Assembly (NCBI RefSeq): GCF_000153485.2
Contig: NC_018721.1
Span: 1,240,001-1,304,000 of the forward strand
Direction: 5' to 3'
Source: Psychroflexus torquis ATCC 700755
GTDB lineage: Bacteria > Bacteroidota > Bacteroidia > Flavobacteriales > Flavobacteriaceae
Length of the DNA: 64,000 nt
Below, in pieces: positions 45,108-64,000 of the stretch; positions within the stretch are counted from its first letter, which is position 1; each line of letters opens with the position of its first letter. Below the pieces are notes generated by a model. That model ran no database searches. It was not told where the DNA came from and saw nothing but the letters and a program-made list of their open reading frames with translations. Position numbers and translations under genes: made by a program.

Positions 45108-45109
45108 AA

Positions 45110-47373: not shown

Positions 47374-48015
47374 CTATTGGTTTTTTGTACCTATCCAGAC
47401 TGTCCCTTTTGCTGTTCTATAATAGGTCATGTCATCGTCTGTGTGAATCATTGGGTTTCTATTTAGTTGCTTTTTGTACCATTTCTGACTAGCGGTATAC
47501 TCTTTTTTAGAAGCATACACCTCTACTGTTTCGGCTATGTCTTCATTGGTGAAATTATATTCATCCACAGCGTATATCCAAGTAAAGGAATCTAACTCAT
47601 TTTTTAGTTTTCCATAATTTTGAGTGGGCATTATTTTTTGTTTTTCTGGTCGATAGTAAGTGCTATCATAAAAATTTAAATAGCCATCTATAGCACAAAC
47701 AACTTGTGAGTTCTCAATAAAAGGTTGATTCAACCATACAGCCAAATAATAGGGTTGATCTAGTGTTTTTAATTGTGTTTCCCAACTATTAAAAATTTCG
47801 ACTAAACTTTCTATAATTAATTTACGTGCTTTGCGTTGCGGTTTTGGTATTCCTGCACCTGTTATAGAAATATCGCTAAAAGGTCGTACCCACACTTTCT
47901 CGTAATTTCTTTGGTAGTGAAGTAGGTAGTCTAGATCTAGGATAAGGCTATCGTTTTTCCAGTTTTCGATGTTCTTAAAAATACGCTGATGTCCTCTTAG
48001 TTTTTTTGTGTCCAT
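47374..48015 (-). CDS. Hypothetical protein
   Basis: The 213-residue soluble protein has no signal peptide and is rich in Tyr and Trp (ITGAGIPKPQRKARKLIIES; SWETQLKTLDQPYYLAVWLN; TYYRTAKGTVWIGTKNQ). No family was recognised. It lies on the same strand as, and downstream of, the caspase-like gene and a relic of a related gene, but 430 bases away. There is no evidence that it is part of that system. Confidence 0.7.
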   Translation of the reverse strand: MDTKKLRGHQRIFKNIENWKNDSLILDLDYLLHYQRNYEKVWVRPFSDISITGAGIPKPQRKARKLIIESLVEIFNSWETQLKTLDQPYYLAVWLNQPFIENSQVVCAIDGYLNFYDSTYYRPEKQKIMPTQNYGKLKNELDSFTWIYAVDEYNFTNEDIAETVEVYASKKEYTASQKWYKKQLNRNPMIHTDDDMTYYRTAKGTVWIGTKNQ

Positions 48016-48056
48016 GTGATTTTTTTATGTCCTTTTAGTGACTGTAGAAGTACTCT

Positions 48057-48091
48057 GGAATAGTTAGCCAATTGAATTGGCTAACTATTCC
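48057..48091. terminator. Perfect 17-bp inverted repeat
   Basis: GGAATAGTTAGCCAATT and AATTGGCTAACTATTCC are exact complements around a single G. The structure follows the caspase-tail relic by two bases and precedes the 47374 gene, so it is probably the original terminator of the lost caspase paralog. Confidence 0.65.
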
Positions 48092-48093
48092 AA

Positions 48094-48210
48094 TTAAATA
48101 ATTATTATTTCTATTATTTTTTTAATCAACGCTACTTTGGTTTCTACTTTTAAATGAAAAGATTTTAAATCTTCACCACATTTCAATTTTAAAGAAATAG
48201 AAAATTATAA
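48094..48210 (-). pseudogene. C-terminal relic of a third WD40-caspase gene
   Basis: The minus strand reads SISLKLKCGEDLKSFHLKVE and TKVALIKKIIEIII then stop. It is nearly the same as the last 35 residues of the 51486-54821 protein (SISLKLRCGEDLKSFELKAK, TKEALMIEILKLI). Nothing else of the gene is left between here and the 48449 stop. It suggests a deletion or recombination between neighbouring paralogs. Confidence 0.75.
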
Positions 48211-48448
48211 GGAAACCTTATATCACATTTAAGTATATTTCCGAAACATTATTTTTATCATTAAAACTGATAGATTCAAATATAAGTACATGTTTTATGG
48301 AATTCAAATATTGAGAACAGAATAGACTTTTTTAAGATTTTAGATATTTCTATAATCCTAGGTGACTTGATTACAGGACTAGAATAATACTGAATTTAAG
48401 TTATTACCAAAAATTTTAGCTTAAAAATAAAGTACTTTAACTCTGTAA

Positions 48449-51376
48449 TTACCAAACTTTCCAATCATTTTCAATCGTTTCGTTTCGGCTAGTAGGCTGT
48501 TGTAATCCGTTGGTTATTTCTTTGACTTGTTCACTTACCAATTGTTTTAATTCACTAACAGTAATGGTTTCTTTCTCTATTAACTGATTCAAAATACAAT
48601 AAGTAAAAACACCATTTTTAAGATCACCGCGTTCTTGAGCAAATTGTGTGCCTGCTGCTGCCGAAATTATTGTAGCCCCTGTAGCTCTATCTATATTATG
48701 AAACAGTTCTTTCATTAACTCGAAACTATTTTTCATACCCATTTTTGGGTTTTTACTTTTTACTACAATAGTACCTTTTAAGCCTTCTATTTCGTTTTCA
48801 ACATTGGCAATAGCTTCTACTTCATCTTTATCTACTTCACCACTGTGACAAGCATCAATTAATAAAAGTTTCTTTCTGGAAGGGATACCGTCTAACAAAT
48901 ACTCCAAATCGTCATAGGGAAGTCCATTTTGTTCAGGTGAATTAAAATTAACATTGTAGGTTCCCAAATAATAATCTAGGTCTTTACTTAGCAAACCATG
49001 CCCTGAAAAACTGATGATGACTTTGTCGTCAACAGTTAAGTTTGTTAACCTTTTTTTAAGTGCTAGAATGTTTTTAATCGTCACATTTTGGTTGAACAAG
49101 GTGTCAATTTCTATTTGATTGCCATATTTTTCTTTGAGTTGTGCTGATAAATCTCTGATGTCCTTTACTGAGTAATTTAAGTCATGACCTTCTTCTTTAT
49201 ACAGGTCTATACCTATACCCACAAAATAGAGTTTTTCTTTTATATTTTCCTTTGGTGTGTAATTTATATAAAGTGGTAGGCGATAACTTTCAATTCCGTT
49301 AACATTCAAAACGGATGTTTCTATTTTATTTTTTCCTTTTGATAGTTTAACGACTAGCGTGGTATCAATAGAATTCGTTTTTTTATTTCTTACAGAAATA
49401 CCTTTACTGCCATAAACAGGTACTTCATTAATCCATAAATTAAAACGGTCTAGTAAATAGGTGCTGTCCAATGCCTTTATGTGTAATTTTAATTCCGAAT
49501 TATTTTGTTCATAAGCAATTTTATCTCGGTTGTAAAAATCACTTTCAGGAATGGAAAACCCCAGTTTAAAGCTTGTGGTATCTATTCCCAATTTTTTAAT
49601 CCGTTTTTGCCATGCTTTTTTATAGGCTTTTATCATGGTTGTATCCTTAGAACCCGCAATACCACCGAGTACTTCTAGAACTTTATCTGGTCGGTTGTAT
49701 TTTACATCTAATTGTTCAAAACCAATCGTTTGTAGACCTTTTATGTAGTAAAGTTTAGAAGCAGCCTTTTTAGTAGCAAAGTAATATCCGCTGGGAAGAA
49801 GCCATAGAACTTCTTTATTATTAAAAACAAATTGTTTAACGAGTTGTTTGCCTGTTTTTACATCCCTAATAATAATGAAGCTGCCATCCGAAGATATTTC
49901 ATTAGCAATACCATTTTTTTTTCTCTTATTTTCAAATTGAATACTATGTAATAATTTTTTAGTTGAAAGGGCCCATATCTTTTGGGTTTTATCTTCTGAT
50001 AATGTCAATAAATCTTGATTAACTTTATTAAATTGAGCAAAAGTTGCATTTGAGCTATAGCCTTTTAAAGTGTGTAGCAACTCCCCTTTATAAGCATCCC
50101 ATACTTTTACAGTCCCATCCCTTGAGGTAGTAACTGCCATTTTTCCGTCTGGACTTAATGTTGTGAAAATAATTTGATCCGAATGGCCTATTAGTTTTTT
50201 ATATGGGTTTGCCAATCCATCTTCAATTTTCCAAATAATAGCAGTTTTTGAATCTTTATATGAAACGGATAGTTCAAAATTCTCGAATTCATTGTTACCT
50301 CGTTTTGAGTCTTCTAAAATACTTATCAAACTTCCATTAGAAACATTCCAAATCCACTGTGATTCTTTCATTATTAATTCATACCCCATACCAGCATCTT
50401 CAATGAGTCTCATATCTGATTTAGTTAGCAGATATCTACTATCTGAAGAAAATTCTGAAGACACAGCAAATTCTGAAGACACAGCAAATTCTGTATCTAA
50501 AACATGTGCTAATTTGCCTGTGCTTAAATCCAATACTTGAGATTTTCCAGTATGGGAGACAATGGATAAGTATTTTTGATTTTCACTCACTGAAGTATGC
50601 CTTAATTCATCAACACTTGGGAAAAAAGAATGAATAGGTTTCCCTGTCGTAACGTCATACATATTAAATCCATTACTAGCACCTATATTGGCACTATATT
50701 GACTAAAAGAAGTACAAGCATTTACTAAAAAATACTTATGGTTTGGACTTATAGTAAATCCGCATTCACCGTCGTAAAATCCAGGAATGCTATAGATTGT
50801 TTTTTTTGTATTCAAATTATATCCAATAATAGATTTATTCTTCATTTGAAGAATAATATCTTCGTTTAAAGAATTCTTTAAGATGGCTAACGTTTTTGAT
50901 TGCTGGAAAGAAATTGATTCTACTTTCCTTTTTATATTTATAAAAATTTGTGAATCACCATTATAGAAATTTACTGCAAATAATTCAGCGTTAGTGTTTA
51001 AAACGACACTTTCCACTTTGTCATTTAGTTTGAAGCTATTAATTAATTTATCAGAATATAATAGTTCTGTACTTTTCTTTCGCTTAGAGTTTGTTATTAC
51101 AGCATAAGCCTTTGCCTCATCTGGAGAAAATTCATCTGTATTTATATCATTCCCTACGTCAAAACTATTTAAGAGATAGCCAGTAGAAGATTCCCATAAC
51201 TTGACTCCATCTGAAGAAGATGAAATAATAAATTTACTATCAGTGCTAAAATTAAATGATGCTAACGGATATTTATGCCCCAAAGGCAAGCCAAGTTTTA
51301 GCTCTTGGCTAACAACCATAAATGACACCAAACAAAGTAAAATGGCCGCATATATCTGTTTTGGTACTCTTTTCAT
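48449..51376 (-). CDS. Exported WD40-caspase (C14) protein
   Basis: The 975-residue protein has a signal peptide (about 1-23), then a WD40-type beta-propeller (blades near 30-75, 395-435 with SRDGTVKVWDAYKGELLHTL, and 440-480). A linker resembling other bacterial WD40-caspases follows. The C-terminal caspase domain (about 715-960) has a catalytic His793 in FSGHGLL and Cys843 in LIDACHSGE. It should be exported and act as a ligand-gated protease. It follows a related gene by 109 bases. An 18-bp tandem duplication in the propeller (50451-50493) gives FAVSSEFAVSSE. Unlike its neighbour it lacks the C-terminal extension whose relic lies at 48094. Confidence 0.9.
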   Translation of the reverse strand: MKRVPKQIYAAILLCLVSFMVVSQELKLGLPLGHKYPLASFNFSTDSKFIISSSSDGVKLWESSTGYLLNSFDVGNDINTDEFSPDEAKAYAVITNSKRKKSTELLYSDKLINSFKLNDKVESVVLNTNAELFAVNFYNGDSQIFINIKRKVESISFQQSKTLAILKNSLNEDIILQMKNKSIIGYNLNTKKTIYSIPGFYDGECGFTISPNHKYFLVNACTSFSQYSANIGASNGFNMYDVTTGKPIHSFFPSVDELRHTSVSENQKYLSIVSHTGKSQVLDLSTGKLAHVLDTEFAVSSEFAVSSEFSSDSRYLLTKSDMRLIEDAGMGYELIMKESQWIWNVSNGSLISILEDSKRGNNEFENFELSVSYKDSKTAIIWKIEDGLANPYKKLIGHSDQIIFTTLSPDGKMAVTTSRDGTVKVWDAYKGELLHTLKGYSSNATFAQFNKVNQDLLTLSEDKTQKIWALSTKKLLHSIQFENKRKKNGIANEISSDGSFIIIRDVKTGKQLVKQFVFNNKEVLWLLPSGYYFATKKAASKLYYIKGLQTIGFEQLDVKYNRPDKVLEVLGGIAGSKDTTMIKAYKKAWQKRIKKLGIDTTSFKLGFSIPESDFYNRDKIAYEQNNSELKLHIKALDSTYLLDRFNLWINEVPVYGSKGISVRNKKTNSIDTTLVVKLSKGKNKIETSVLNVNGIESYRLPLYINYTPKENIKEKLYFVGIGIDLYKEEGHDLNYSVKDIRDLSAQLKEKYGNQIEIDTLFNQNVTIKNILALKKRLTNLTVDDKVIISFSGHGLLSKDLDYYLGTYNVNFNSPEQNGLPYDDLEYLLDGIPSRKKLLLIDACHSGEVDKDEVEAIANVENEIEGLKGTIVVKSKNPKMGMKNSFELMKELFHNIDRATGATIISAAAGTQFAQERGDLKNGVFTYCILNQLIEKETITVSELKQLVSEQVKEITNGLQQPTSRNETIENDWKVW

Positions 51377-51485
51377 CCTTTAGGAATATCTGATTAAATT
51401 TATCTTTACTTCTTTTTTTTACGGTCTTCACAAATATTCCAGCCAATTCAATTGACTTTTATTTTTCAAATTATTCAATTTACAA

Positions 51486-54400
51486 CTAGTTATTAATCAA
51501 TTTTAGGATTTCTATCATCAACGCTTCTTTAGTTTTGGCTTTTAATTCAAAAGATTTTAAATCCTCACCACATCTCAGTTTTAAAGAAATAGAAATAGTA
51601 TTATCATCCATAGTATACCCTCCGCTAATTTTACAAGCATTAGGAAATTTTGCTGAGTCAAAATAAACCAATGGTGAGCTTATTCCTTTTGAGGCTAACA
51701 ATGATAATTCTTGGTTTAATAATTCGGAAAGCGCAATATTATCTTCAAAATCATCTGCATTCACTAAAGTAGATCTTACAAATACGGTCTTAGGACTTGC
51801 TAATGGTATTGCTTCTTTATCATTATTTCTAAGCATACCAATATCAAAGGAACCTCCTTTAGGTATTAGTAACTGTGGCTCTTGCACGCCTCCAATACCT
51901 TCTGCTAATTTTGGCACCGTTTCTCTAGCGTAATTCATGATGGTAAGTATATCAACATATGTATCCTCTTTTAGAGCGGCTCCTTTCATCGCTTGTAAAA
52001 TAGAATACGTAAGTAACCCTTGTCCATACATGCTTGCTTCATAGCTTACAGCATCTGCTGCAGATCCTGAAATAATGTACATGCCTGTGCGGTCTTTCAT
52101 TCTGTCAATTGCTTTTATTTGAGAGGGTTCAATATCACGTTCTGCAATGAGATTATCTACCGCTTTACCAGAACCACAAGCATCAATAATCATCACTTGT
52201 TTTAATGCGGGAATTTCCTTTAGCCAATCCACCCATTCCGCAGTAGAAATTGTATTATTATCTCTAATTGCTGGATCATTATAGGCTTCATTACTTGTAG
52301 CTGTAGCTTGTGATGTAAGGAAGTAGAAATCACCTTGATTGCCTCCCCAAGTGATGCCATGACCACTTAAATAAACGGTAATAATGTCTTCTGCATTAGC
52401 TTTAACGCTAATCTCCTTAAATATCTTTTTAATATTTTCTTTAGTAGGTAATTGATCAGATTTTGAGGTGATGGTATAAATATGCGTTCTATTTTTACTA
52501 AACAGGTTCTCTGCACCTAATTGCATTGCTTTAGAGATCGCTTCTGCATCATTAACGGTGTACTTTAAATTCAATTGATCATTAGCATAATCTCCTACGC
52601 CAATAACAACTGCAAAAAATTGTGGCTCTGTTAAAACTTCTTTTTTTATAATTGATTTCCCTTTAGCTCCTCTTCCTTGCACAAAACCATCTTCTGATGA
52701 TGCTTTTACGGTAATTTCATTTTCTCCTTCTAAAAGATAAGGATGGTCTTTGATAGATACAGATATAGTTTGCTCACTTAATGTATAATCCATGTCGGTT
52801 GGTCTTATATCACCAACAGCTTCTTTACCATTAATAAATAATGATACTTTGCCATAACCGCCTTCTCGTTTTGTTAAGTATATGGTAACCCCATCTTTAT
52901 TAAATTTTACTATTTCAACTTCAGGCTGCAATTTTAGTTCGCTCATATTACGAACATCAGGTAGCTTTTCTCCTTTCATTACTTTCTCCCAGAGTCCTGG
53001 TAACCAGTAGCGATCTTTTAATTGATCAAATTCTATGACCTCCAAACCTTTGGTCCAATACATTATTTTCATTGCTTCTGGTGATGCATCGAAAAGGCCA
53101 GAAGGATGGATGTGTACCCATTTTTTAGGATCACCTCCAATCATGTAATACGTAATTATTCTTCCAAAAGCTATACTCCATAATACAATACTTCCATCTT
53201 CAGATGCAGATATAAGAAATGTATCAAAACTTGTATCAAAGCTATCTAGAGAGTTAACAATTGCACCATGAGCTCCTAATCGTTTAAACTGGGACCAACC
53301 TATATTTGGTTGTAATACTTGAAAACCAATACTTCCTTGATTTGTGCCTACCCTTAGGTATTTGTTGTTAAAAAGTGTTAGACTTTCTGTACTTTTTTCT
53401 TGTCGTAATCGTAACCTGTTTCCAAAACCATGGGTCGGTATACTAGAACTAGCAGATAAAAACCCTGTTATCTTGTTGTATTTTATCTTGCTTAATTTTA
53501 CTATACTATCAAGAACATTACCTAATTGCTGCTTACGCAAATATTCAAAAATACTAAAGCTGTATGGAGTATGAATGAACTCTGTTTTTGGTTTATCAAA
53601 ACCTTTCAACTTACCATTATCAAGTGAAAGTATGAATTCTTTTAAATCATTATCTACGAAATAGAATTTTCGATCTAAAGGGTTTATGGAAGCAAATAAG
53701 ATGGGTTCGATCTGATTTTGTAATAGGGAAATAACACTTCCATCCGCAAGACTAAAATTCTCGATTTTTTTATTATTAAAAATAGAGAAAGAATTGCTTT
53801 TTATATGAACCCTTATATCTGTAGGATTACCTTTAAATGAGGTTTTCTGAACAATAGTTTTAGAAGTAATATCTAAAATTTTAATAGAATCTGATGTGAC
53901 CCAGGCTAATTTATTTAATACAGACTCAAGTTTTAATAAACTTATTGCCTTATTTTCCTCCTCAAAAAGTATGGTAATTATTCCTGTTTTAATATCTAAT
54001 TCACTTAATGAATTCTGCTTATCAAAAAAGTAAACTTTTGACTTTAATGCATCAACTTGAAAATCAATGATAGCATAATCGATGTCAATAGTTTTTATTT
54101 CAATGTTCTTCCTGAAATTCCAGAGTTGTATAGAATTTTTGTAAAACAGTGCTAAAATATCTTTTTCTACAAATAAGAAGTCCTTTAGTTTTTTAAATTT
54201 CTTCCTAAAAATTTGAGTTTTTGATGCATCAAAAATTGTGATTATGCCTTGTTCACTTCGCATACCAAAAATTTTCTCTAAACCACACGCCTTTGCATCT
54301 ATTGTATTGTCTCCCTTTAAAATGAACTCAAATTTTGACTGGTCTCTGATACTTATGAACTGAACTACAAAATTTTGATAAATTCCAATAATAAATGTTT

Positions 54401-54821
54401 TTGAGGGATCAATTTTAATAGAGTTTAGTTTTTGTGGGGTTTGAGTGTGATGATTTTCCGCTAAAATATTTTTTTCTGAATGGTTAATATTAAAGAATTC
54501 TTTCTCATTTTTTAGATCATATAATGAGGCACTGTTCTCCGAGTTTCTTACAAGAATTAAACTATCAGAAAAAAACCCAAATTCTTTTGAGTTTATTATA
54601 TAGGGTATACTTGTGATAAGTTTTTCAGCTTTTATATCCCAGATTTTGATAGTGTTATCTCTTGAAATAGAGGCTATAAATTTACCACTTAGACTGTATA
54701 TAATGTCTACTATAGTATCCGTATGTCCTACTGGAAGTCCAATTTTTATTTCTTGACCATACATGATATTAGTAAACAAAAAAAACAGCACTGTCAGTTT
54801 ACATTTTAGAATTATTCTCAT
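51486..54821 (-). CDS. Exported WD40-caspase (C14) protein, longer paralog
   Basis: The 1111-residue protein has a signal peptide (to about residue 22). A propeller follows (first blade IKIGLPVGHTDTIVDIIYSL, a late one SASEDGSIVLWSIAFGRI near 540), then an Ig-like stretch (about 630-715). The caspase domain (about 730-1000) has His821 in VYLSGHGITW and Cys882 in IIDACGSGK. The last 110 residues form an extra domain (MDDNTISISLKLRCGEDLKS). It shares the start KIGLPVGH with the 48449 product (KLGLPLGH), so they are paralogs. A terminator separates it from the small secreted gene upstream. Confidence 0.9.
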   Translation of the reverse strand: MRIILKCKLTVLFFLFTNIMYGQEIKIGLPVGHTDTIVDIIYSLSGKFIASISRDNTIKIWDIKAEKLITSIPYIINSKEFGFFSDSLILVRNSENSASLYDLKNEKEFFNINHSEKNILAENHHTQTPQKLNSIKIDPSKTFIIGIYQNFVVQFISIRDQSKFEFILKGDNTIDAKACGLEKIFGMRSEQGIITIFDASKTQIFRKKFKKLKDFLFVEKDILALFYKNSIQLWNFRKNIEIKTIDIDYAIIDFQVDALKSKVYFFDKQNSLSELDIKTGIITILFEEENKAISLLKLESVLNKLAWVTSDSIKILDITSKTIVQKTSFKGNPTDIRVHIKSNSFSIFNNKKIENFSLADGSVISLLQNQIEPILFASINPLDRKFYFVDNDLKEFILSLDNGKLKGFDKPKTEFIHTPYSFSIFEYLRKQQLGNVLDSIVKLSKIKYNKITGFLSASSSIPTHGFGNRLRLRQEKSTESLTLFNNKYLRVGTNQGSIGFQVLQPNIGWSQFKRLGAHGAIVNSLDSFDTSFDTFLISASEDGSIVLWSIAFGRIITYYMIGGDPKKWVHIHPSGLFDASPEAMKIMYWTKGLEVIEFDQLKDRYWLPGLWEKVMKGEKLPDVRNMSELKLQPEVEIVKFNKDGVTIYLTKREGGYGKVSLFINGKEAVGDIRPTDMDYTLSEQTISVSIKDHPYLLEGENEITVKASSEDGFVQGRGAKGKSIIKKEVLTEPQFFAVVIGVGDYANDQLNLKYTVNDAEAISKAMQLGAENLFSKNRTHIYTITSKSDQLPTKENIKKIFKEISVKANAEDIITVYLSGHGITWGGNQGDFYFLTSQATATSNEAYNDPAIRDNNTISTAEWVDWLKEIPALKQVMIIDACGSGKAVDNLIAERDIEPSQIKAIDRMKDRTGMYIISGSAADAVSYEASMYGQGLLTYSILQAMKGAALKEDTYVDILTIMNYARETVPKLAEGIGGVQEPQLLIPKGGSFDIGMLRNNDKEAIPLASPKTVFVRSTLVNADDFEDNIALSELLNQELSLLASKGISSPLVYFDSAKFPNACKISGGYTMDDNTISISLKLRCGEDLKSFELKAKTKEALMIEILKLINN

Positions 54822-54855
54822 TTTTTAACACTATCTATTACTATTAAAAATAAAA

Positions 54856-54889
54856 AAATCCGGACAATATTTAAATATCATCTGGATTT
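54856..54889 (-). terminator. Terminator after the small exported gene
   Basis: On the minus strand AAATCCAGA and TCCGGATTT pair with one mismatch and run into seven T residues. It lies 60 bases after the stop of the 54950-55375 gene and before the WD40-caspase start, so the small gene can be transcribed alone and at a higher level. Confidence 0.65.
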
Positions 54890-54949
54890 AACTTTTGTTG
54901 TCAATAATAGGTTTAATTGTAAAAAAGAAAACTTAATTACAGATGAAAT

Positions 54950-55375
54950 TTAACGTGAATTACTTTCTGTAAGTTTGTAGGTAAAGTAACTATCACAGTC
55001 TCCAGTGGCTTCCCATTCATAAGACCCTCCAGAAGTCATGCAATATACCTCAGTATATCCTCCAATAACCGTTACACTACCTTCATCCCAAGGGTGTACC
55101 CAACCTTCAAAATAACCATCTACATAAACCTTAATATCAAACCCTGTATAATTATCTACGTTAATTGTACAAGTAGAACCGCGAGTTGCAGCAGGTTTTG
55201 CAACCGCAACATCCGGAGCATCACAAACAAAGTCTGTTTTGATATTTGGATTTTCACCCCTAGTTTTAGGCACTTCTGTTCCAGTAATCTCGACTAATTT
55301 AGTTTCTTTTTCTTGACCAAAAGAATTAAAAGACACTAATAAAAATAGAAGATTAACCAATAGTAATTTTTTCAT
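54950..55375 (-). CDS. Small exported four-cysteine protein with TRG sites
   Basis: The 141-residue product has a signal peptide (MKKLLLVNLLFLLVSFNSFG, cut before QEKE). A flexible 45-residue linker carries two Thr-Arg-Gly sites (38-40 and 64-66). A compact C-terminal domain has Cys69, Cys112 and Cys127 (with Cys51 before it) and beta-strand-like text (NVDNYTGFDIKVYVDGYFEG). No family was recognised. It sits between caspase genes, with its own terminator, divergent from a metacaspase. Metacaspases cut after Arg, and TRG also recurs in the neighbouring metacaspase, so it is a candidate substrate. That role is inference. Confidence 0.75.
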   Translation of the reverse strand: MKKLLLVNLLFLLVSFNSFGQEKETKLVEITGTEVPKTRGENPNIKTDFVCDAPDVAVAKPAATRGSTCTINVDNYTGFDIKVYVDGYFEGWVHPWDEGSVTVIGGYTEVYCMTSGGSYEWEATGDCDSYFTYKLTESNSR

Positions 55376-55943
55376 TTTGTTAAATTTTTTAGATTAATAA
55401 TGCTGTAATATTATGACTAATTTTAGAAAAAAACAATTTTTGTGTTAATTTTTTCTTATTTTATTCATAAGTAAGTCATTTGTCCTGAATTATTTTTGTT
55501 TAGAACAGCAAAACTATATTAATTCAGGATTTAATGTTTTTATGAGTTTCGTAAATTGAAGAATAAACCTATAAAAGGTTTTAGAGTACCTTTTTAAAGT
55601 ATTACAAAATGAACTAAAGTTTGCCTTTGAAAAGTATTAAAAGCTATCAAAAAAAGTGCAACCCAATGCGAAACTGAATTATTGACAACAAATTCTTACA
55701 TAATTTAAGTAATTTAAATTTCAAAAGAATTGATTTTGAGCAGGTATGCTCACTTTAATAATTTTATTAGTCTTTTCCAAACATAAAAAAGTATTACTTT
55801 AGCAAAAAATTAACTTATAAATAAGAAACTTTCTAATAATCTTCATGTGTGAATTTTAAAAATTTTACAAAAGCCTTGCAGAGCACTCCCTATTTATTTG
55901 GAATTACATCTAACCATTTTAAAATTAATTTATACCTGCCACT
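55376..55943. other. Divergent intergenic region of the caspase cluster
   Basis: This 568-bp AT-rich gap separates the minus-strand half of the cluster from the plus-strand half and must contain both promoters. I saw no coding frame, and no convincing TAnnTTTG element could be fixed. Confidence 0.4.
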
Positions 55944-57920
55944 ATGAAAAAAATAATAGTAACACTACTTATCTTTTTTAGTTTTCAGTTAGCAAAAGCT
56001 GAAAAATACGCCTTAATCATTGCAATTGGAAATTATGACTATAAGACAACAGGATGGAGTAAAATTAGTTCAACAAACGATGTACCGCTTATAGAACAGA
56101 CGCTAATTAACCAAAATTTCAAGAAAGAAAACATCACTCTTTTAATTGATGAAGCTGCTACTTTTGCTGGAATTAAAGCGGCTTTAGACAACCTGTTAAG
56201 TACAATAAAACCAGATGACATTGTTGTCATACATTATTCTGGTCATGGACAGCAAATTTATGATGATGATATAGACGAAGAAATCGATGGTAAAGACGAA
56301 GCTTTAGTTCCTTACGATGCCAACTCTAGATATAGTGATGCTTATACAGGACAAAATCATTTTAGAGATGATGAATTAGGAAATTATATCACAAAATTAA
56401 GAAATACACTTCAAACAAAAGGTCAATTATTATTACTTCTAGACAGTTGTCATTCGGGTTCATCAACTCGAGGAGGAAGTGCTAGAGGAAGTAAATCTGT
56501 TTTCGCACCTGTTGGTTGGGAATCTAAAAAGACAGAAGTCGAAAAAGGAAGTGATATGACCGAAAAATCTAAGGAAAAGCTTACTGAAAACGCTGCTCCT
56601 TTTGTACTTATTTCTGGAGCCTCAGCGAATGAACTAAATTATGAATATAAAGGATTCGGATCTTTAAGTTACGCCTTTTCTAAAGCCATGAGTAAATTAG
56701 GTAGTAATTACTCCTACAATCAATTGTTTGCCAAAATTAAAGCTGAAATGAATATTATTTCACCTAAACAATCTCCAACCATTGAAGGAGATAAGAACAT
56801 GGCTTTATTTAATGACAAATATATTAAACAAGAGCCTTATTTTGAAGTAGTAAGTATTTCGAAAGATACTATTGTAAAAATCCAAGCGGGTAGATTACAA
56901 GGTTTATTTGAAAATACAACCGTTAATATTTTACCTGCAGCTACCACTAAATTTACAGAGGAGGCTGTTTTAGCCAAAGGCACTATTACCCTGTCAAAAT
57001 TTAATGAGGCTGTCATAAAACTTGATAGAGACTTGCCAGATGCAAACGAAAAAAACTATTGGGTTTTTATAGATGAACTCTCTTACGGAGATATTGCAGT
57101 AGATATTTATTTTCATGAGTCTTTAAAAGACCAAGCAATAAAAGATGGTGTTGCCAATTTCTTGTCTGAAAAAAAATTAGGAAATATTGTTAAAGATAGC
57201 CTAATGGCAGATGCTGTTTTAATGCAAAATGGAAATACAATAACGCTTAATGCCACAAATGGGTTAGATGCAGTAGATAAAGATGCGAACACAAGAGGTG
57301 CTACTTCTGTTGAAGATATTAATAAAAAAATATTTAATTTTTCTCAAGGACAATATCTTAAAAAGTTTGAAATAAAAAATTATGATTATGAATTCGATTT
57401 TAAATTAATTCCTGTTGAATTTGACGAAGCAAAGCGGGTGGTTAAGAATTTATTGAATCCAAAAGATTTTGAAAATGAAAACGGAATACTTCAAGTAAGA
57501 GCTGGGGTAGATGACGTTGTATTACAAGTAACTAATAAAGGTAATAAACCATTCTATTTTAGTATTATCGAAATTTATGACACAGGATTAATTCTTCCCC
57601 TCATGCCAAATGTTAATTGCGACCTAAACGATGATGAAAGAAAATTGGCCCCGGGCCAAACGATGACCTTTAAAGATTGTGTTTTTTCTTTTGCACCGCC
57701 TTATGAGAAACTATTATTAAAAGGGTTTGCTTCATCAACTCCCATAAATTTCCAATCTACTGTTGAAACCAGAGGAGCAGATACTCGTGGTTCTTCAAAT
57801 CCGTTAGAAAAATTTTTATCAAATAGTTATTCTCAAAGCAGAGGTCGTACTTCAACTAAAGTAACTGGTAAATTAGAAGGTTTTAGTACGGAGTTAATAT
57901 ATGAGATTGTAAAGGAGTAA
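55944..57920 (+). CDS. Exported metacaspase with DUF4384-like domain
   Basis: The 658-residue protein has a signal peptide (MKKIIVTLLIFFSFQLAKA). Its metacaspase domain (about 21-290) has His101 in VIHYSGHGQQ and Cys169 in LLLDSCHSGS, with acidic loops (DDDIDEEIDGKDEA) suited to calcium. A middle region follows, then a C-terminal DUF4384-like domain (NKGNKPFYFSIIEIYDTGLI; PLMPNVNCDLNDDERKLAPG). Thr-Arg-Gly occurs at 175-177, 450-452, 609-611 and 614-616, with ARGSK at 180. These lie in loops or linkers, where metacaspases are often self-cleaved after Arg. It is the first gene of the plus-strand group. Confidence 0.9.
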   Translation: MKKIIVTLLIFFSFQLAKAEKYALIIAIGNYDYKTTGWSKISSTNDVPLIEQTLINQNFKKENITLLIDEAATFAGIKAALDNLLSTIKPDDIVVIHYSGHGQQIYDDDIDEEIDGKDEALVPYDANSRYSDAYTGQNHFRDDELGNYITKLRNTLQTKGQLLLLLDSCHSGSSTRGGSARGSKSVFAPVGWESKKTEVEKGSDMTEKSKEKLTENAAPFVLISGASANELNYEYKGFGSLSYAFSKAMSKLGSNYSYNQLFAKIKAEMNIISPKQSPTIEGDKNMALFNDKYIKQEPYFEVVSISKDTIVKIQAGRLQGLFENTTVNILPAATTKFTEEAVLAKGTITLSKFNEAVIKLDRDLPDANEKNYWVFIDELSYGDIAVDIYFHESLKDQAIKDGVANFLSEKKLGNIVKDSLMADAVLMQNGNTITLNATNGLDAVDKDANTRGATSVEDINKKIFNFSQGQYLKKFEIKNYDYEFDFKLIPVEFDEAKRVVKNLLNPKDFENENGILQVRAGVDDVVLQVTNKGNKPFYFSIIEIYDTGLILPLMPNVNCDLNDDERKLAPGQTMTFKDCVFSFAPPYEKLLLKGFASSTPINFQSTVETRGADTRGSSNPLEKFLSNSYSQSRGRTSTKVTGKLEGFSTELIYEIVKE

Positions 57921-58097
57921 GCTATGAGAATTTTATTAACCTTTTCTGTTTTATGGGCCGGCAACGGGTCATGGCAAAGATAAATAGTCATACAACTCGA
58001 CTGGATTAAAATCTTTACAAACTTAATTGTAAATGATATAGACTTAAGTAGAGTTAACTTTTTTAATGCGTCCATCAGGAAAATTTATAATGACTTT

Positions 58098-61000
58098 ATG
58101 AAAAAAAAAATAAACCTTAGTTTTTTGATCATTTTTTTATTTTTCCAATCTAATACTTTTGCACAAACCGATAAAGGCAATAATGATTGGAATGAAAGTC
58201 TTAATACAGGTATTCAAGCCCTAAACACGAAGTCATTTAATTCTGCAGAATCGGAATTAAAAAAAGCTTATAGAATAGCTATTTCTGTCTTTGATGAGAA
58301 CTCAGAGAATTTAACAACTACAGCCTATTATTATGCAATAACTCTTATGCAGTTGGATAAAAATATAGAGGCTCAAGAACCTATGGAAATGGCTTTAACT
58401 GGTTTTAAATTTTTACACGGAGAAACTAGTGAGCAATATGCCACAGGATTGTCAATTTTAGCCAATATTTATTTAAGGAATAAAGTTTATAAATTGGCAG
58501 AGGAAAAATACTTAGAGTCCAATGAGGTTTTAAAAAACATGTATGGAGAAAATCACTATATGTATGGTATTGCCTTAACAAACTTCGCTGCTTATTACAG
58601 AAAAATAGAAAACTATAAAAAAGCACTCGAAACCCTTAATGAGGGCTTCGCTATTTTAAAAGATAATCCAGAATTTGATCAGCAATATTACAACAACTTA
58701 AGATATAATAACCTTTCGGAAATATATCAGGGTCTTGGAAAATTAGAGGAAGCGCTTGCAATTGAAGAAGAATCTTTAAACTATATTAAAATCAATTATG
58801 GAAAATTCACGACCAACTATGCCAATATACTAACAAGCATTGGAGGTATAAATATTGATTTAGGATATTTCAATAAAGCAGAAAAACACCTAGAAGAAGC
58901 TGCGTTTATCTTTGAACAATTAGAAAACTTAGAGAATGAAGAGGCATTAGGAAACACCTATTTGTTTATGGTGGCTTGTTATGTAGAGACATCAGATTAT
59001 AAAAAAGCGTTGTATTATGCAAGTGAAGGTATTAGATTAACTAAATTAGAATCTAATACTCCGCCATTAAACGCTCTTAATTACTATGGAATTTTAGGAC
59101 GATTAAGTTGGGAATTAGGAGATTTTACACAGACTAAAGAATATTTTCAAAAAATTATTGATGGTACAATTAAGTCTATAGGCATAAACGCACCTCAACT
59201 GCCCGTTTTAAAGTCAAATTTAGGCATGTGCTATAGAGAACTCGAAGAAACAGACAAAGCAATACAACTCACTCAAGAGGCTTTTAATATGGCTAAAGAA
59301 ATGGAGTATTCCATTAAAGACAAAGAATACAGGACATGTCTAAATAATTTAAGTATACTATTATTAGATCAAAAAAAATATGAAGAGGTTATTAAAAATT
59401 TAAAAACCATTTTAGATGAAGAAGATAAATCATATCCTAATTATTGGCTAAAAGCGGTCGATCTAGCTGGTGTTTATATGATGAATAACCAATGCAATGA
59501 AGCTTTAAAATTACTTGAAAAAGCAATTGGAAAAGTAAAACAGTTTTATGGAAAAGAAGATCCAAACTACATAGCGACATTAAACAGTTTAATTATTGCA
59601 CAACGTTGTGAAAAAAAGTATCAAAATCTGATAAATAATATTGAAGAAGCTAATCAATTAACTAAAAATCAATTATTAAAAAGATTTAGTTTTAGCCCCG
59701 AAAATCTACAACGTTTTTTTCTTGCAGATCTTGAGTATTCATTTAATTTATATGAGACCATAGGTTTAGATTTTAAGAATGATAAACTAGCTATCATTAA
59801 TTTAGAAAATCAATTTTTGTTAAAAGGCCTCCTTTTAAATCAGTCTAAAAATATTACTGAAAAACTTGCAGATTTAAATGATGAGGTAATCAACTTACAG
59901 ATAGATGAATACATAAATAACAAGCAACTTCTAAACAGGTTAGAAGTTGAAAAAAATCTTAATAATGAAGAGGTTTTAAATGACTTAAAAGCTAAAATTA
60001 GCAGATCTGAAGTAGAGCTAGTTCAACTTTATAATAAAAAGTTTAAAAAAACTATAGATTTTAATAAAAGTTGGAAAAAAGTACAGAAAAAACTAAAAGA
60101 TAATGAAGTTGCTATCGAATTTTCAAGATTCAATAATATTTCATACCAGTCTTTAGACAGTACTTTTTACATGGCATATATCATTAAAAAAGGAGTAGAT
60201 AAACCGGAGGTTATAAAACTTTTTGAAGAAGATCAATTATTAAAAATAGTAACATACGCAGGAGGTCTAAACCAGCTAAATCTATCACGGGGTTCAAAAG
60301 CATCAAATGTGGGTGATAAAATTAAAACCAATTCTCTTTATAATTTAATATGGAAACCACTAGAACAGTACTTGACTAATATTGAAACCGTTTATTACGC
60401 TCCTTCTGGTTTACTTCACAATATATCTTTTGCTGCCTTGAATACAGATAATCGCTTTTTAATTAACAAATACAATCTCTATCAGTTAAGCAGTACTTTT
60501 GAGCTTGCACAAGGCTTTGAACAACCCACTCCAGATAATATTCTTCTTATAGGAGGTATTGAATATGACTATTTAAAAAAGGAAACTCAAAAAAAAATAG
60601 TTAAAAACGAAAGTAAGCCTTTAGATTTATTAGCTATAAATTCGGAACGTGGAAAAGGTAATAAATGGAGTTATTTACCTGGGACTTTAAACGAGATTAA
60701 TAATTTAAAAAAATTACTAATTGATAAAAATAAAAACTCTGAAATTTTAAAAGGTGATGCGGCAACTGAATCAAGATTCAAAAGCTTAAGTAATAATAGT
60801 CCAAATATTATACATATCGCTACTCATGGTTTTTTCTTTGAAAACAAATCAAAATCAAAAGACTTTTTATCATTTTCAGATGAAAACAGAAAATTTAAAG
60901 CCAATGAAAATCCATTAAAAAGAACAGGGCTTTTGCTGAGTGGAGCAAACTACGCTTGGATTAATGGAGATAACCCTTTTGAAATTGACAATGGTGTTTT

Positions 61001-61325
61001 AACAGCCGAGGAAATATCAACGTTAGATTTGTCCAATACAAAAATGGTGGTGCTTAGTGCTTGTGAAACAGGACTTGGTGATATTGATGCTAGTGAAGGA
61101 GTTTACGGTTTACAACGTGCCTTTAAAATGGCTGGAGTAGATATCATTATAATGAGTCTTTGGGAAGTTCCTGATGAAGAAACCGCAGAATTTATGAACC
61201 TTTTTTATAGCAATTGGCTTGGAGGAATAGACGTAAGAATTGCCTTTAACCAGACCCAACGCAGCATGTCTAATAAGTATAAAGATCATCCAGAGAAATG
61301 GGCTGCCTTTGTGTTATTTGAGTAA
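58098..61325 (+). CDS. Exported TPR-CHAT protease
   Basis: The 1075-residue protein has a signal peptide (to about residue 25, ending TFAQ). A long array of tetratricopeptide repeats follows (about 30-560, for example DNPEFDQQYYNNLRYNNLSE). The C-terminal CHAT domain (about 740-1075) carries His910 in IIHIATHGFFF and Cys989 in VVLSACETGLG. CHAT is a caspase-like fold; TPR-CHAT proteins are protein-triggered proteases. It starts 177 bases after the metacaspase and is 18 bases before a second TPR-CHAT gene. SRGSKAS near the domain start resembles RGSK sequences in its neighbours. Confidence 0.92.
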   Translation: MKKKINLSFLIIFLFFQSNTFAQTDKGNNDWNESLNTGIQALNTKSFNSAESELKKAYRIAISVFDENSENLTTTAYYYAITLMQLDKNIEAQEPMEMALTGFKFLHGETSEQYATGLSILANIYLRNKVYKLAEEKYLESNEVLKNMYGENHYMYGIALTNFAAYYRKIENYKKALETLNEGFAILKDNPEFDQQYYNNLRYNNLSEIYQGLGKLEEALAIEEESLNYIKINYGKFTTNYANILTSIGGINIDLGYFNKAEKHLEEAAFIFEQLENLENEEALGNTYLFMVACYVETSDYKKALYYASEGIRLTKLESNTPPLNALNYYGILGRLSWELGDFTQTKEYFQKIIDGTIKSIGINAPQLPVLKSNLGMCYRELEETDKAIQLTQEAFNMAKEMEYSIKDKEYRTCLNNLSILLLDQKKYEEVIKNLKTILDEEDKSYPNYWLKAVDLAGVYMMNNQCNEALKLLEKAIGKVKQFYGKEDPNYIATLNSLIIAQRCEKKYQNLINNIEEANQLTKNQLLKRFSFSPENLQRFFLADLEYSFNLYETIGLDFKNDKLAIINLENQFLLKGLLLNQSKNITEKLADLNDEVINLQIDEYINNKQLLNRLEVEKNLNNEEVLNDLKAKISRSEVELVQLYNKKFKKTIDFNKSWKKVQKKLKDNEVAIEFSRFNNISYQSLDSTFYMAYIIKKGVDKPEVIKLFEEDQLLKIVTYAGGLNQLNLSRGSKASNVGDKIKTNSLYNLIWKPLEQYLTNIETVYYAPSGLLHNISFAALNTDNRFLINKYNLYQLSSTFELAQGFEQPTPDNILLIGGIEYDYLKKETQKKIVKNESKPLDLLAINSERGKGNKWSYLPGTLNEINNLKKLLIDKNKNSEILKGDAATESRFKSLSNNSPNIIHIATHGFFFENKSKSKDFLSFSDENRKFKANENPLKRTGLLLSGANYAWINGDNPFEIDNGVLTAEEISTLDLSNTKMVVLSACETGLGDIDASEGVYGLQRAFKMAGVDIIIMSLWEVPDEETAEFMNLFYSNWLGGIDVRIAFNQTQRSMSNKYKDHPEKWAAFVLFE

Positions 61326-61343
61326 AAAATAAAAATTTATGTT

Positions 61344-64000
61344 ATGAGAAAGATTTTGATCATATTCATTTTAAGTATTTCATTTTTGGGGTTTTCTCAA
61401 GAAGAAGAGATTCTTGATTTATACAACCAAGCAGAACAATACAAAGAACAACAAGACTATCAACAAGCAGTAAACACTTATAAACTAGTATTAAATAAAG
61501 CTAAAAGCACCTATGGTAAGTCCCATGAATACTATGGTATATTTTTAAATAATTTGGCTTTGTTGTACAAAAGTATGGGGGACTATCAAAAAGCATTGCC
61601 TTTGTATCTAGAAGCCCTTGAAAATAAAGAAAAGGCACTTGGAAAAGAGCATTCGGAATATGGAACAACTTTAAATAATTTGGCTGGTTTGTACAAAAGT
61701 ATGGGGGACTATCAAAAAGCCTTGCCTTTGTATCTAGAAGCTCTTGAAAATACTGAAAAGGCACTGGGGAAAGAACATTCATCTTATGGAATTCGTTTAA
61801 ATAATTTGGCTTATTTATACAAAAGTATGGGAGACTATCAAAAAGCCTTGCCTTTGTTTCTAGAAACCCTTGAAAATGCTGAAAAGGCACTGGGGAAAGA
61901 GCATTCAGATTATGGAATTCGTTTAAATAATTTGGCTGGTTTGTACAAAAGTATGGGGGACTATCAAAAAGCCTTGCCGTTGTATCTAGAAGCTCTTGAA
62001 AATACTGAAAAGGCACTGGGGAAAGAACATTCATCTTATGGAAAATATTTAAATAATTTGGCTGGTTTGTACTATAGTATGGGGGACTATCAAAAAGCAT
62101 TGCCTTTGTTTCTCGAAGCCCTTGAAAATACTGAAAAGGCACTGGGAAAAGAGCATTCAGAATATGGAATTCGTTTAAATAATTTGGCTGGTTTGTACGA
62201 AAGTATGGGAGACTATCAAAAAGCATTGCATTTGTTTCTCGAAGCACTTGAAAATACTGAAAATGCAATGGGAAAAGAGCATTCATCTTATGGAATTAGT
62301 TTAAATAATTTGGCTTTGTTGTACAAAAGTATGGGGGAATATCAAAAAGCATTGCATTTGTATCTAGAAGCTCTTGAAAATACTGAAAAGGCACTGGGGA
62401 AAGAACATTCATCTTATGGAAAATATTTAAATAATTTGGCTTTGTTGTACCAAAGTATGGGGGAATATCAAAAAGCCTTGCCTTTGTTTCTCGAAGCACT
62501 TGAAAATACCGAAAATGCACTGGGAAAAGAGCATTCATCTTATGGAATTAGTTTAAATAATTTGGCTTTGTTGTACAAAAGTATGGGGGACTATCAAAAC
62601 GCCTTGCCTTTGTTTCTCGAAGCACTTGAAAATACTGAAAAGGCACTGGGGAAAGAACATTCATCTTATGGAAAATATTTAAATAATTTGGCTTTGTTGT
62701 ACCAAAGTATGGGGGAATATCAAAAAGCCTTGCCTTTGTTTCTCGAAGCACTTGTAAATACCGAAAAGGCACTGGGGAAAGAGCATTCGGAATATGGTAT
62801 ATTTTTAAACAATTTGGCTGGTTTGTACGAAAGTATGGGGGACTATCAAAAAGCATTGCCTCTTTTAATAGAATCTAATGACAACATTCTAAACCAAATA
62901 AAACAAAATTTCTCTTTTCAAAATGAAAAAGGAAAAGAAGCATTTATTAATAATATTGTGAGTGCTGGTTTAAATAAATTCTCACAATTTAATTATACAA
63001 CTGATAATTCTTATTTAGAAAGTATTTCTGTAGGAACTAATAATATATTAACGAGCAAAGGTTTATTACTTAATGCTTCAAAAGATATTTTAAGTCTATT
63101 GGAGAGTCTTGATGATGAAGAGCACAATGATAAAATCCTACAATTTAGAGCTCAAAGAAAGTATATCAATACACAACAGCAGTTAACAATAGATAAACGT
63201 GTAAAGGATTTTACAGAACAAAAAGAAACCCTAGAAGAATTAGAAAGAGAACTGGTTAAACTGTACAATATAAATTTTGGTGAAGACCTTAACTATGTTA
63301 AAGACTGGAAAAAAACACAACTTAAAGACAACGAGATAGCTATAGAATATACACACTTTAGATATTTCAACAAAAAATGGACAGAAAGTACCATGTATGT
63401 TACTTACCTCTATAAAAAAAACTGGGAAACTCCTAAAGTCATCAATCTTTTTGAAGAAAAACAACTCAAAAAATATTTATCCTCATCAAACAACCCCAAC
63501 ATACTATATAAAACCAGAGGCTCCAAAGCTAAATCTACAACGGCACAATTGGCAGTTGCAGATAGTATCTATAATTTGGTTTGGCAACCTTTAGAAAAAT
63601 ATGTAGAGACCAGTGAAAAAATATATTTTTCCCCAGATGGTTTGTTACATAAAATAGCGTTTGCAGCATTACCCAATCCAGATAATAAACTCATTGGAGA
63701 AGTCTATGATATAAATCAAATGGGCAGTACAGCAGATGTTGGCATGAATATTAAATACCCAAACTTAGAGGATGTTCTGTTAATTGGTGGTGTGAAATAT
63801 GATTACCAAATAGATTCTACAAAACAAAAAAAAAAATTACTTACAGCCTTTTAGAAAGCAAAGAGTTATTAGGAGATACAATCAACAGAAATATTTCTAG
63901 AAATGGTTTTAATTATTTAGAGGGAACAAAAAAAGAAATAACAGACATAAAAGCCTTGCTAGGTAAAAGCAAAGAACTTTCTGGTTACAATGCAACAGAA
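61344..64000 (+). CDS. Exported TPR-CHAT protein, frameshifted and cut by the window end
   Basis: The protein has a signal peptide (MRKILIIFILSISFLGFSQ) and 11 near-identical 42-residue kinesin-light-chain-like TPRs (residues 64 to about 525). A CHAT-linked region matches the previous gene (SIYNLVWQPLEKYVETSEKI; YFSPDGLLHKIAFAALP). The frame ends at 63854 just after an A11 run at 63826-63836. In the -1 frame the homology continues to the window end (YSLLESKELLGDTINRN, YLEGTKKEITDIKALLGKS, LSGYNATE). Twelve A residues would restore one frame. The His/Cys part lies beyond the window. Confidence 0.85.
61533..62918 (+). repeat. Tandem 126-bp repeat encoding 11 TPRs
   Basis: Eleven units of 126 bp encode variants of LNNLAGLYKSMGDYQKALPL. 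They are nearly identical at DNA level, with recurrent alternatives (YGIR/YGKY/YGIS, LYLE/LFLE, GDYQ/GEYQ). The mosaic of variants suggests unequal crossing over and recent expansion or contraction. Long antisense frames here are a by-product of the repeat. Confidence 0.9.

Follow-up and report, generated by a model that had tools for sequence, protein, structure and literature searches.

An exported metacaspase of Psychroflexus torquis, its motif-bearing exported partners, and a small protein proposed as its substrate

RESULTS

An exported metacaspase within a cluster of caspase and CHAT genes

The stretch of DNA that we analyzed, referred to here as the window, comprises 64,000 nucleotides of Psychroflexus torquis ATCC 700755 (positions 1240001 to 1304000 of the single-contig 4.32-Mb genome; coordinates below are window positions). 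Reading of the open reading frames (ORFs) placed five genes, A to E, and the first part of a sixth, F, within 48449 to 63854. The subjects of this work are D, which encodes an exported metacaspase, and its neighbor C, which encodes a small exported protein with four cysteines. The labels A to K denote genes of this cluster, L-numbers denote loci, and G-numbers denote the genomes compared. An initial annotation had described two WD40-caspases, one metacaspase, two TPR-CHAT proteins and a small four-cysteine protein at this place, and all of them were located by the ORFs and a Pfam scan, which assigned Peptidase_C14 to A, B and D and CHAT to E and F. The four His/Cys pairs that it had counted in the window are complete in A, B, D and E, and the signal peptides that it had assigned throughout correspond to signal-peptide-like N termini in all six ORFs, A to F, as well as in G, which lies outside the window. 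These calls, like all signal peptide calls below, were made with a simple hydropathy rule of our own rather than a trained predictor.

Genome-wide, we found five matches to PF00656, four of them in the cluster (including G), and three CHAT matches, which represent two genes, one of them split, and which all lie in the cluster. The four caspase domains span 17.3 kb, or 0.4% of the genome. Because four of the five PF00656 matches and all three CHAT matches of the genome are located here, the clustering goes beyond chance. The same rule assigned no signal peptide to the fifth caspase of the genome (at 4206499).

D (55944 to 57920, + strand) encodes 658 amino acids. Its caspase domain (residues 21 to 282; Peptidase_C14, E 2e-22) starts directly behind the predicted signal peptide and carries the catalytic motifs SGHG (residues 99 to 102) and DSCHSG (residues 167 to 172). 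Across the 34 rows of an alignment of orthologues sharing 30 to 60% identity with D, His101 and Cys169 are invariant. A profile of D matched yeast metacaspase-1 (4f6o) with an E value of 1.6e-22, the stretches 18 to 171 and 207 to 281 matching p20 and p10; with a His/Cys dyad in p20 and p10 on the same chain, D is of the metacaspase type (C14B). All 77 complete D proteins have a signal-peptide-like start, any Met of residues 1 to 45 being accepted as the start here and for C below. The "DUF4384-like" scaffold that the initial annotation had seen in D did not hold up, since no Pfam match to DUF4384 was obtained at E 0.01.

D contains five [S/T]RG tripeptides (four TRG and one SRG). The first, at Arg176 (56466 to 56474, + strand), lies behind the catalytic Cys169 and is followed by ARG at residues 180 to 182, so that Arg176 and Arg181 are 7 and 12 residues after Cys169 and ahead of the p10 part, which begins at about residue 207. 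The Arg-Gly (RG) pair is kept at position 176 in 33 of the 34 orthologues and at position 181 in all 34. A TRG at Arg451 (57291 to 57299, + strand) is less well kept (RG in 11/34), and the tail of the protein carries a double TRG at Arg610 and Arg615 (57768 to 57791, + strand; RG in 23/34 and 22/34, respectively) and an SRG at Arg633 (57837 to 57845, + strand; RG in 31/34). Asp46 and Asp167, likewise invariant in the 34-row alignment, are candidate pocket residues and seem, by motif position, to correspond to the acidic pair of TbMC2. In TbMC2, two acidic residues bind the basic side chain (PMC6426788). Characterized C14 members other than caspases all favor Arg or Lys at P1, and the maturation cut of caspases falls between p20 and p10 (PMC5756287). 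As regards calcium, the p10 Asp is missing from a few metacaspases of Bacteroidetes (PMC6426788).

The small exported protein C

C (54950 to 55375, − strand) encodes 141 amino acids and has no Pfam family. In the 15 C proteins compared, all of which have a signal-peptide-like start, a Pfam scan found no family above chance, the best match (E 0.012) being to a DUF. Two TRG sites are present, each a predicted cut site: Arg39 (55256 to 55264, − strand), which precedes a recurrent GxNPNI stretch and where RG is kept in 13 of the 15 rows of the C profile, A3, and Arg65 (55178 to 55186, − strand), just ahead of Cys69, with RG in 12 of the 15 rows. Cys69 and Cys127 are invariant in A3. A protein search returned 147 homologues of C, of which 120 were listed and used for site counts; among these 120, 118 retain Arg65 and all retain Cys69. 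The C-like ORFs that we read in class genomes carried [S/T]RG in 16 of 17 cases, one of the 16 being a fragment with a single TRG, and the remaining ORF had only ARG and QRG at its sites.

When C was used as a single query sequence, no match was obtained in the 149 family genomes other than in our own; the wide spread of C was revealed only by comparison of D loci and by profile A3. Matches of the C profile to the PDB (E 2e-4 to 1) were rejected, as they were summed weak repeats of designed propellers, with no single repeat significant.

Partners of D across Bacteroidota

At 1e-10, D was matched in 8 of 149 genomes of the family (our own included), five of the others being strong orthologues (E below 1e-200). 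Of the 27 genus genomes, only our own has D. Five D orthologues (A2) then served as the pattern for a search of GTDB species, which yielded 381 stretches, of which 179 encode a relative. The best 80 of these 179 were kept and make up 79 loci, all from Bacteroidota by their record titles; with our own locus and the fragment L029 added, there were 81. Partners were counted in 78 D loci, after near-duplicates L064, L074 and L057 had been dropped (the genome of L057, which is also that of L028, is thereby absent from these counts and from the motif counts below).

The recurrent partners were fam1, an exported protein of ~470 amino acids with no Pfam family in the two members scanned (24 loci); fam2, a trypsin plus ankyrin protease (20 loci); C (15 loci); fam4, HtrA-like by eye and Trypsin_2 by Pfam (15 loci); CHASE2 and FecR-like proteins (13 loci each); the lipoprotein H (10 loci); and fam8, a DUF900 hydrolase (9 loci). 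CHAT genes were present in 29 loci and other caspases in 37, and 47 of the 78 loci had a further caspase or CHAT gene near D. At least one of C, fam1, fam2 and H was found in 44 of the 78. The conserved core of the system is metacaspase D with motif-bearing exported partners, C among them. The initial annotation had proposed to check related genomes for co-occurrence of the six genes A to F; such co-occurrence stands for D with its partners and fell away for the six genes as a unit, the full set of best matches being present in our own locus only among the 81.

C lies adjacent to D in 8 of its 15 loci, two genes off in four, three genes off in two and seven genes off in one. The two genes are on the same strand in 13 of the 15, and in our own genome they are divergent, with 568 bp between them. 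C and fam1 were never found in the same locus (0 versus 4.6 expected; P = 0.002), nor were fam2 and fam4 (0 versus 3.8 expected; P = 0.007; kinship was not corrected for in either case), as if the members of each pair were alternatives. The best overlap with our own set was in Lutibacter agarilyticus (L050), which has A-, B-, C-, D- and F-like ORFs; Flavobacterium fluvii also has both C and D. The identities to our own proteins are 77% for C and 78% for B versus 53% for D, and the cluster is therefore a mosaic.

Side observations were made in other D loci. In L028 (8884 to 10542) and L029 (1586 to 3295), exported ORFs adjoining D carry two caspase-domain stretches in tandem. Near D in L075, L077, L088, L089, L100 and L104 there are pairs of f10 (~190 amino acids) and f12 (~250 to 400 amino acids) that resemble sigma and anti-sigma factors, as judged by length and place alone. 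CHASE2/FecR-like pairs occur in L068, L069, L071, L075, L077, L079, L081, L087 and others, the CHASE2 protein having no Pfam output domain.

Co-occurrence of C and D

Equal draws of genomes were searched with a 34-row profile of D (A4) and a 15-row profile of C (A3). In the class draw of 395 genomes, D was found in 24 (at 1e-60) and C in 16 (at 1e-6), and 14 genomes had both, versus about 1 expected (Fisher P = 1e-17). With our own genome left out, 13 of the 15 genomes with C also had D (P = 2e-16); at the genus level, again without our own, D was present in 7 of 9 genera with C versus 15 of 195 genera overall (P = 1e-7). The two genes were on the same contig, within about 2 kb of each other, in 9 of the 13 pairs from other genomes. 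In the other four (G645, G747, G790 and G843), C and D are on separate contigs, and C still carries one or two [S/T]RG sites.

In the phylum draw, also of 395 genomes, D was found in 8 (at 1e-40) and C in 12 (at 1e-3). Five of the C matches were below 1e-9, and four of these five genomes have D. In two of the four and in the fifth genome, the match lies inside an ORF of ~280 to 290 amino acids, and in the two with D this ORF and D are on different contigs. C-like stretches within ORFs of this length were seen in G351, G469 and G538 (L122 to L124 and L132), two of these genomes having D on another contig and one having no strong D.

The [S/T]RG motif in five exported families

We had noticed TRG and SRG in C and D by eye before testing them, and the test was therefore not blind; all 8,000 tripeptides were ranked nonetheless. 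Across C, D, fam1, fam2 and H, five mutually unrelated exported families with [S/T]RG in common, SRG ranked first and TRG second (mean log2 observed/expected). Within families, on another score, the ranks of the SRG/TRG pair were 2 and 3 for C, 3 and 15 for D, 8 and 10 for H, and 5 and 173 for fam1. At least one site was present in 140 of the 161 proteins of these five families and fam8 versus 34 of 290 other exported ORFs. Members of one family are not independent of each other, and drawing a single member of each at random is the fairer test; it gave 9 sites versus 0.55 expected, with a median P of 7e-9 and a 95th percentile of 2e-4 over 1,000 draws.

Enrichment was also found in CHAT proteins (4.7-fold; 23 of 39 with a site), other caspases (2.6-fold; 24 of 61) and fam8 (2.1-fold; 2 of 9). 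HtrA-like (0.7), CHASE2 (1.0), FecR-like (1.1), other exported (1.3) and nonexported (1.1 times expectation) proteins were near background, and we therefore rejected the idea that [S/T]RG is a general mark of exported proteins. Other exported ORFs of D loci have 0.37 sites per 1,000 residues, and in our own genome 89 exported ORFs together have 8, a background of 0.22 per 1,000 residues. Besides the two sites in C and the five in D, our cluster and its surroundings have one site each in E, F, H and a DUF6175 protein and none in A, B and G. In four fam2 sequences that we inspected, the motif sits between the signal peptide, which it closely follows, and the trypsin domain, and the residues that come after it are most often V, F and G (12, 13 and 16 of 18 sites, respectively); given this placement and these residues, it could be a zymogen switch.

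On balance, we judge it probable that D is an exported, Arg-specific, self-processing metacaspase that would cut C after the arginine of [S/T]RG, the cleavage being predicted from sequence. The initial annotation had already put C forward as a candidate substrate, and that proposal has gained from the recurrence of C as a partner of D across Bacteroidota and from the presence of [S/T]RG in both.

A number of observations weigh against this reading. The motif is weak in fam2, where its two forms rank 192 and 212, and in 34 of the 78 D loci neither C nor fam1, fam2 or H is nearby. Among the 120 C homologues listed, Arg39 is kept in 50, so that it is often lost; 49 have Lys at P2 of the Arg65 site; and [S/T]RG is present in just 61. 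The C protein of G314, which is outside A3, has no Cys at all. By indel density, the sole measure of linker character used here, only four of six D sites and one of two C sites are in clearly indel-rich stretches (at or above the 86th percentile), the remaining sites being at the 74th, 58th and 10th percentiles. As for co-occurrence, 10 of the 24 class genomes with D have no C; G840 has two copies of C with sites and no D match at 0.001; and in G591, where the C sites read ARG and QRG, only a divergent caspase (E 1e-27) adjoins C. The C profile was, moreover, made from D-linked members, and G814, at least one genome of the class draw, had contributed rows to it, so that D-linked C was favored by the search.

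The [S/T]RG sites could instead be cut by another exported arginine protease (trypsin-like, HtrA-like or general), D itself being among its substrates. Such proteases are at hand in many D loci, fam2 in 20 and fam4 in 15 of the 78 and never both, and a trypsin-like neighbor, in the loci that have one, could be the cutting enzyme; G840 keeps C and its sites without D. We nevertheless consider this explanation unlikely. C tracks D, and no protease of the fam2 or fam4 type was seen near D in our own genome or, by comparison of ORFs with these families only, in the C-D loci of G592 and G682. A quite unlikely alternative, to our minds, is that [S/T]RG is a docking, modification or structural motif of proteins that assemble with D and not a cleavage site. 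Nearly all homologues of C retain Arg65-Gly66 though P2 varies, and site 1 of C is outside indel-rich stretches, as would suit a motif of that kind; its opponents are the several sites per D, two of which sit between p20 and p10, and the basic P1 accepted by metacaspases (PMC5756287).

WD40-caspase and TPR-CHAT neighbors

The other proteases of the cluster flank C and D. Genes A (48449 to 51376, − strand; Peptidase_C14, E 1e-14; SGHG and DACHSG) and B (51486 to 54821, − strand; Peptidase_C14, E 1e-19; SGHG and DACGSG) encode exported WD40-caspases. E (58098 to 61325, + strand) is an intact exported TPR-CHAT protein (CHAT, E 4e-58) with ATHG and SACETG motifs and a single SRG, at residues 730 to 732, ahead of the CHAT domain. 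F (61344 to 63854, + strand), by ORF and Pfam evidence a second exported TPR-CHAT protein, has about ten near-identical TPR units. Of the initial annotation's claim for F, the first part of the protein stands; the frame is lost ahead of the catalytic residues, ending at 63854, shortly after a run of 11 A's at about 63826 to 63836. The His (ATHG) and Cys (SACETG) motifs of its CHAT domain are in another frame beyond the window, at about 64049 and 64286, respectively. The loss of frame at the A run is possibly an assembly error, decay or a switchable tract.

The cluster continues beyond the window with the rest of F and then G to K. G (about 65009 to 68464, − strand) is a WD40-caspase, the sixth protease, with intact His/Cys motifs. 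H (about 68606 to 69358, or L010:5606 to 6358, + strand) is a broken lipoprotein gene that has a stop codon within the signal peptide region and a 3′ end earlier than in its nine relatives of 298 to 303 amino acids, which are situated near D in nine other loci. I is an exported ORF with no Pfam match, and J and K (about 70190 to 72117, − strand) are a pair in which J was named FecR-like by eye, having no Pfam match, and K is a CHASE2 protein.

A, B and G share neither [S/T]RG nor a fixed position relative to D, which is a further point against the proposed reading. The association of A and B with D is uncertain, and the WD40-caspases of our own genome may be bystanders. The protease network with three sensor scaffolds envisaged by the initial annotation thus found little to sustain it in the motif, which is absent from A, B and G and present only once each in E and F.

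Taken as a cytoplasmic caspase/CHAT locus of the phage defense type, like the bacterial gasdermin or Craspase systems, the cluster would account for the matches of A, B, D and G to the PADLOC "caspase" model (E 2e-8 to 9e-16) and for the variability of the stretch, with D in 1 of 27 genus genomes. Genes A to G have signal-peptide-like starts, though, C is exported and matches neither gasdermin nor any other Pfam family, and the Pfam matches listed for the neighbors include no Cas family; we regard a defense locus of this kind as very improbable.

The variable stretch might also hold an accidental pile-up of genes that do not act together. Next door, glgA is found in 1 and the DUF6175 gene in 7 of 27 genus genomes (our own counted in each), and the identities to L. 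agarilyticus are those of a mosaic. An accident would have to accommodate the co-occurrence of C and D, also where they are unlinked, a motif common to C, D and the partner families, and CHASE2 and FecR-like exported proteins that are together in 12 of the 13 loci of each; we hold it to be extremely unlikely. For D and C, their co-occurrence argues against an accident; A, B and G may be accidental neighbors.

Farther out, glgB-, glgC- and glgA-like genes (named by eye) lie at 41940 to 46516, and the glgA protein was unmatched at 1e-50 in the 26 other genus genomes. A module of five exported genes, including one DUF6175 gene and one lipoprotein-like gene, lies at L010:12894 to 18111. We rejected this module as part of the system, since it is present in six other genus genomes; in the four of them that were read, no caspase-like ORF was matched within 15 to 22 kb. 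Promoter-like and terminator-like sites were no more frequent than in shuffled sequence, and tblastn of C and D against a plasmid collection gave no match for either, so that carriage on plasmids is not indicated. Por_Secre_tail, a C-terminal sorting domain of type IX secretion cargo, was not among the matches listed for A to G at E 0.01 (other sorting domains were not searched for); the same Pfam library does detect it in a neighbor of D in L022.

DISCUSSION

Proposed mechanism

In the mechanism that we propose, D would be exported across the inner membrane, and we infer its location beyond that membrane from the signal-peptide-like start. A trigger, perhaps acting through the TPR-CHAT or WD40-caspase neighbors, which are probably sensors or upstream activators, would lead to cuts between p20 and p10, and D would mature itself at Arg176 or Arg181 and in its tail (Arg610 to Arg633). 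Active D, with a predicted specificity for arginine, would then cut after the Arg of [S/T]RG in exported clients encoded with it or elsewhere. The client in P. torquis would be C, in which cuts after Arg39 and Arg65 would take away the linker at its N terminus and release a compact domain of about 75 residues that a Cys69-Cys127 disulfide probably holds together. In other Bacteroidota, the clients may be C or fam1, the trypsin-ankyrin protease fam2 and the lipoprotein H.

A more ambitious version, which we put forward as a doubtful possibility, is an envelope cascade like coagulation or complement, in which exported sensor caspases and TPR-CHAT proteins would activate D by cutting between p20 and p10 and D would open precursors at [S/T]RG, including the trypsin-like zymogen fam2, with its SRG close behind the signal peptide, and the effector C. 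From genome comparison alone come a candidate for a natural substrate, precisely placed predicted cut sites and a code common to five exported families. If the proposal is true, part of the bacterial caspase world sits in the cell envelope and not in the cytoplasm, and a signaling cascade in the envelope is suggested.

Comparison with known systems

A 2012 survey described the functions of prokaryotic metacaspases as largely uncharted and reported possible signal peptides, Bacteroidetes operons with several metacaspases and 23 operons with protease domains (PMC3501461). In the literature covered by our search, which consulted papers in part and had most subscription papers and preprints outside its scope, we found neither the D-C pair nor the C family nor the [S/T]RG code. 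In the bacterial gasdermins, a caspase-like protease is encoded beside its substrate and cuts before a glycine, as proposed for D and C; the residue preceding that Gly is Leu in the bacterial gasdermin tested (PMC9612521) versus Arg at the predicted sites of C and D. Unlike gasdermins, C is exported, has 141 amino acids and shows no gasdermin match.

The TPR plus CHAT architecture of Craspase Csx29, which acts with Cas7-11, is likewise found in E and F. Unlike Craspase, E and F have signal-peptide-like starts, and neither Cas7-11 nor any other Cas family is among the Pfam matches listed for 19 ORFs (47374 to 64000 and L010:956 to 18111; the rest of the genome was not searched). Arg-gingipain, an Arg-specific protease of the caspase clan, differs from D in belonging to another protease family. 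In Porphyromonas gingivalis, it cuts an N-terminal part off exported type V fimbria subunits and thereby starts their assembly (PMC5954841). Up to E 1, the Pfam matches of the 15 C proteins include no fimbrillin family, and C shows no sign of a lipobox.

A further likeness is to the prokaryotic orthocaspases and metacaspases (C14B), such as MaOC1 of Microcystis, which like D have a p20 with a His/Cys dyad. Orthocaspases process themselves, and the characterized members favor a basic P1 (PMC5756287, PMC8283722). Unlike the known C14B enzymes, D is exported, keeps its Arg-Gly sites across the phylum and has exported companions with the same sites.

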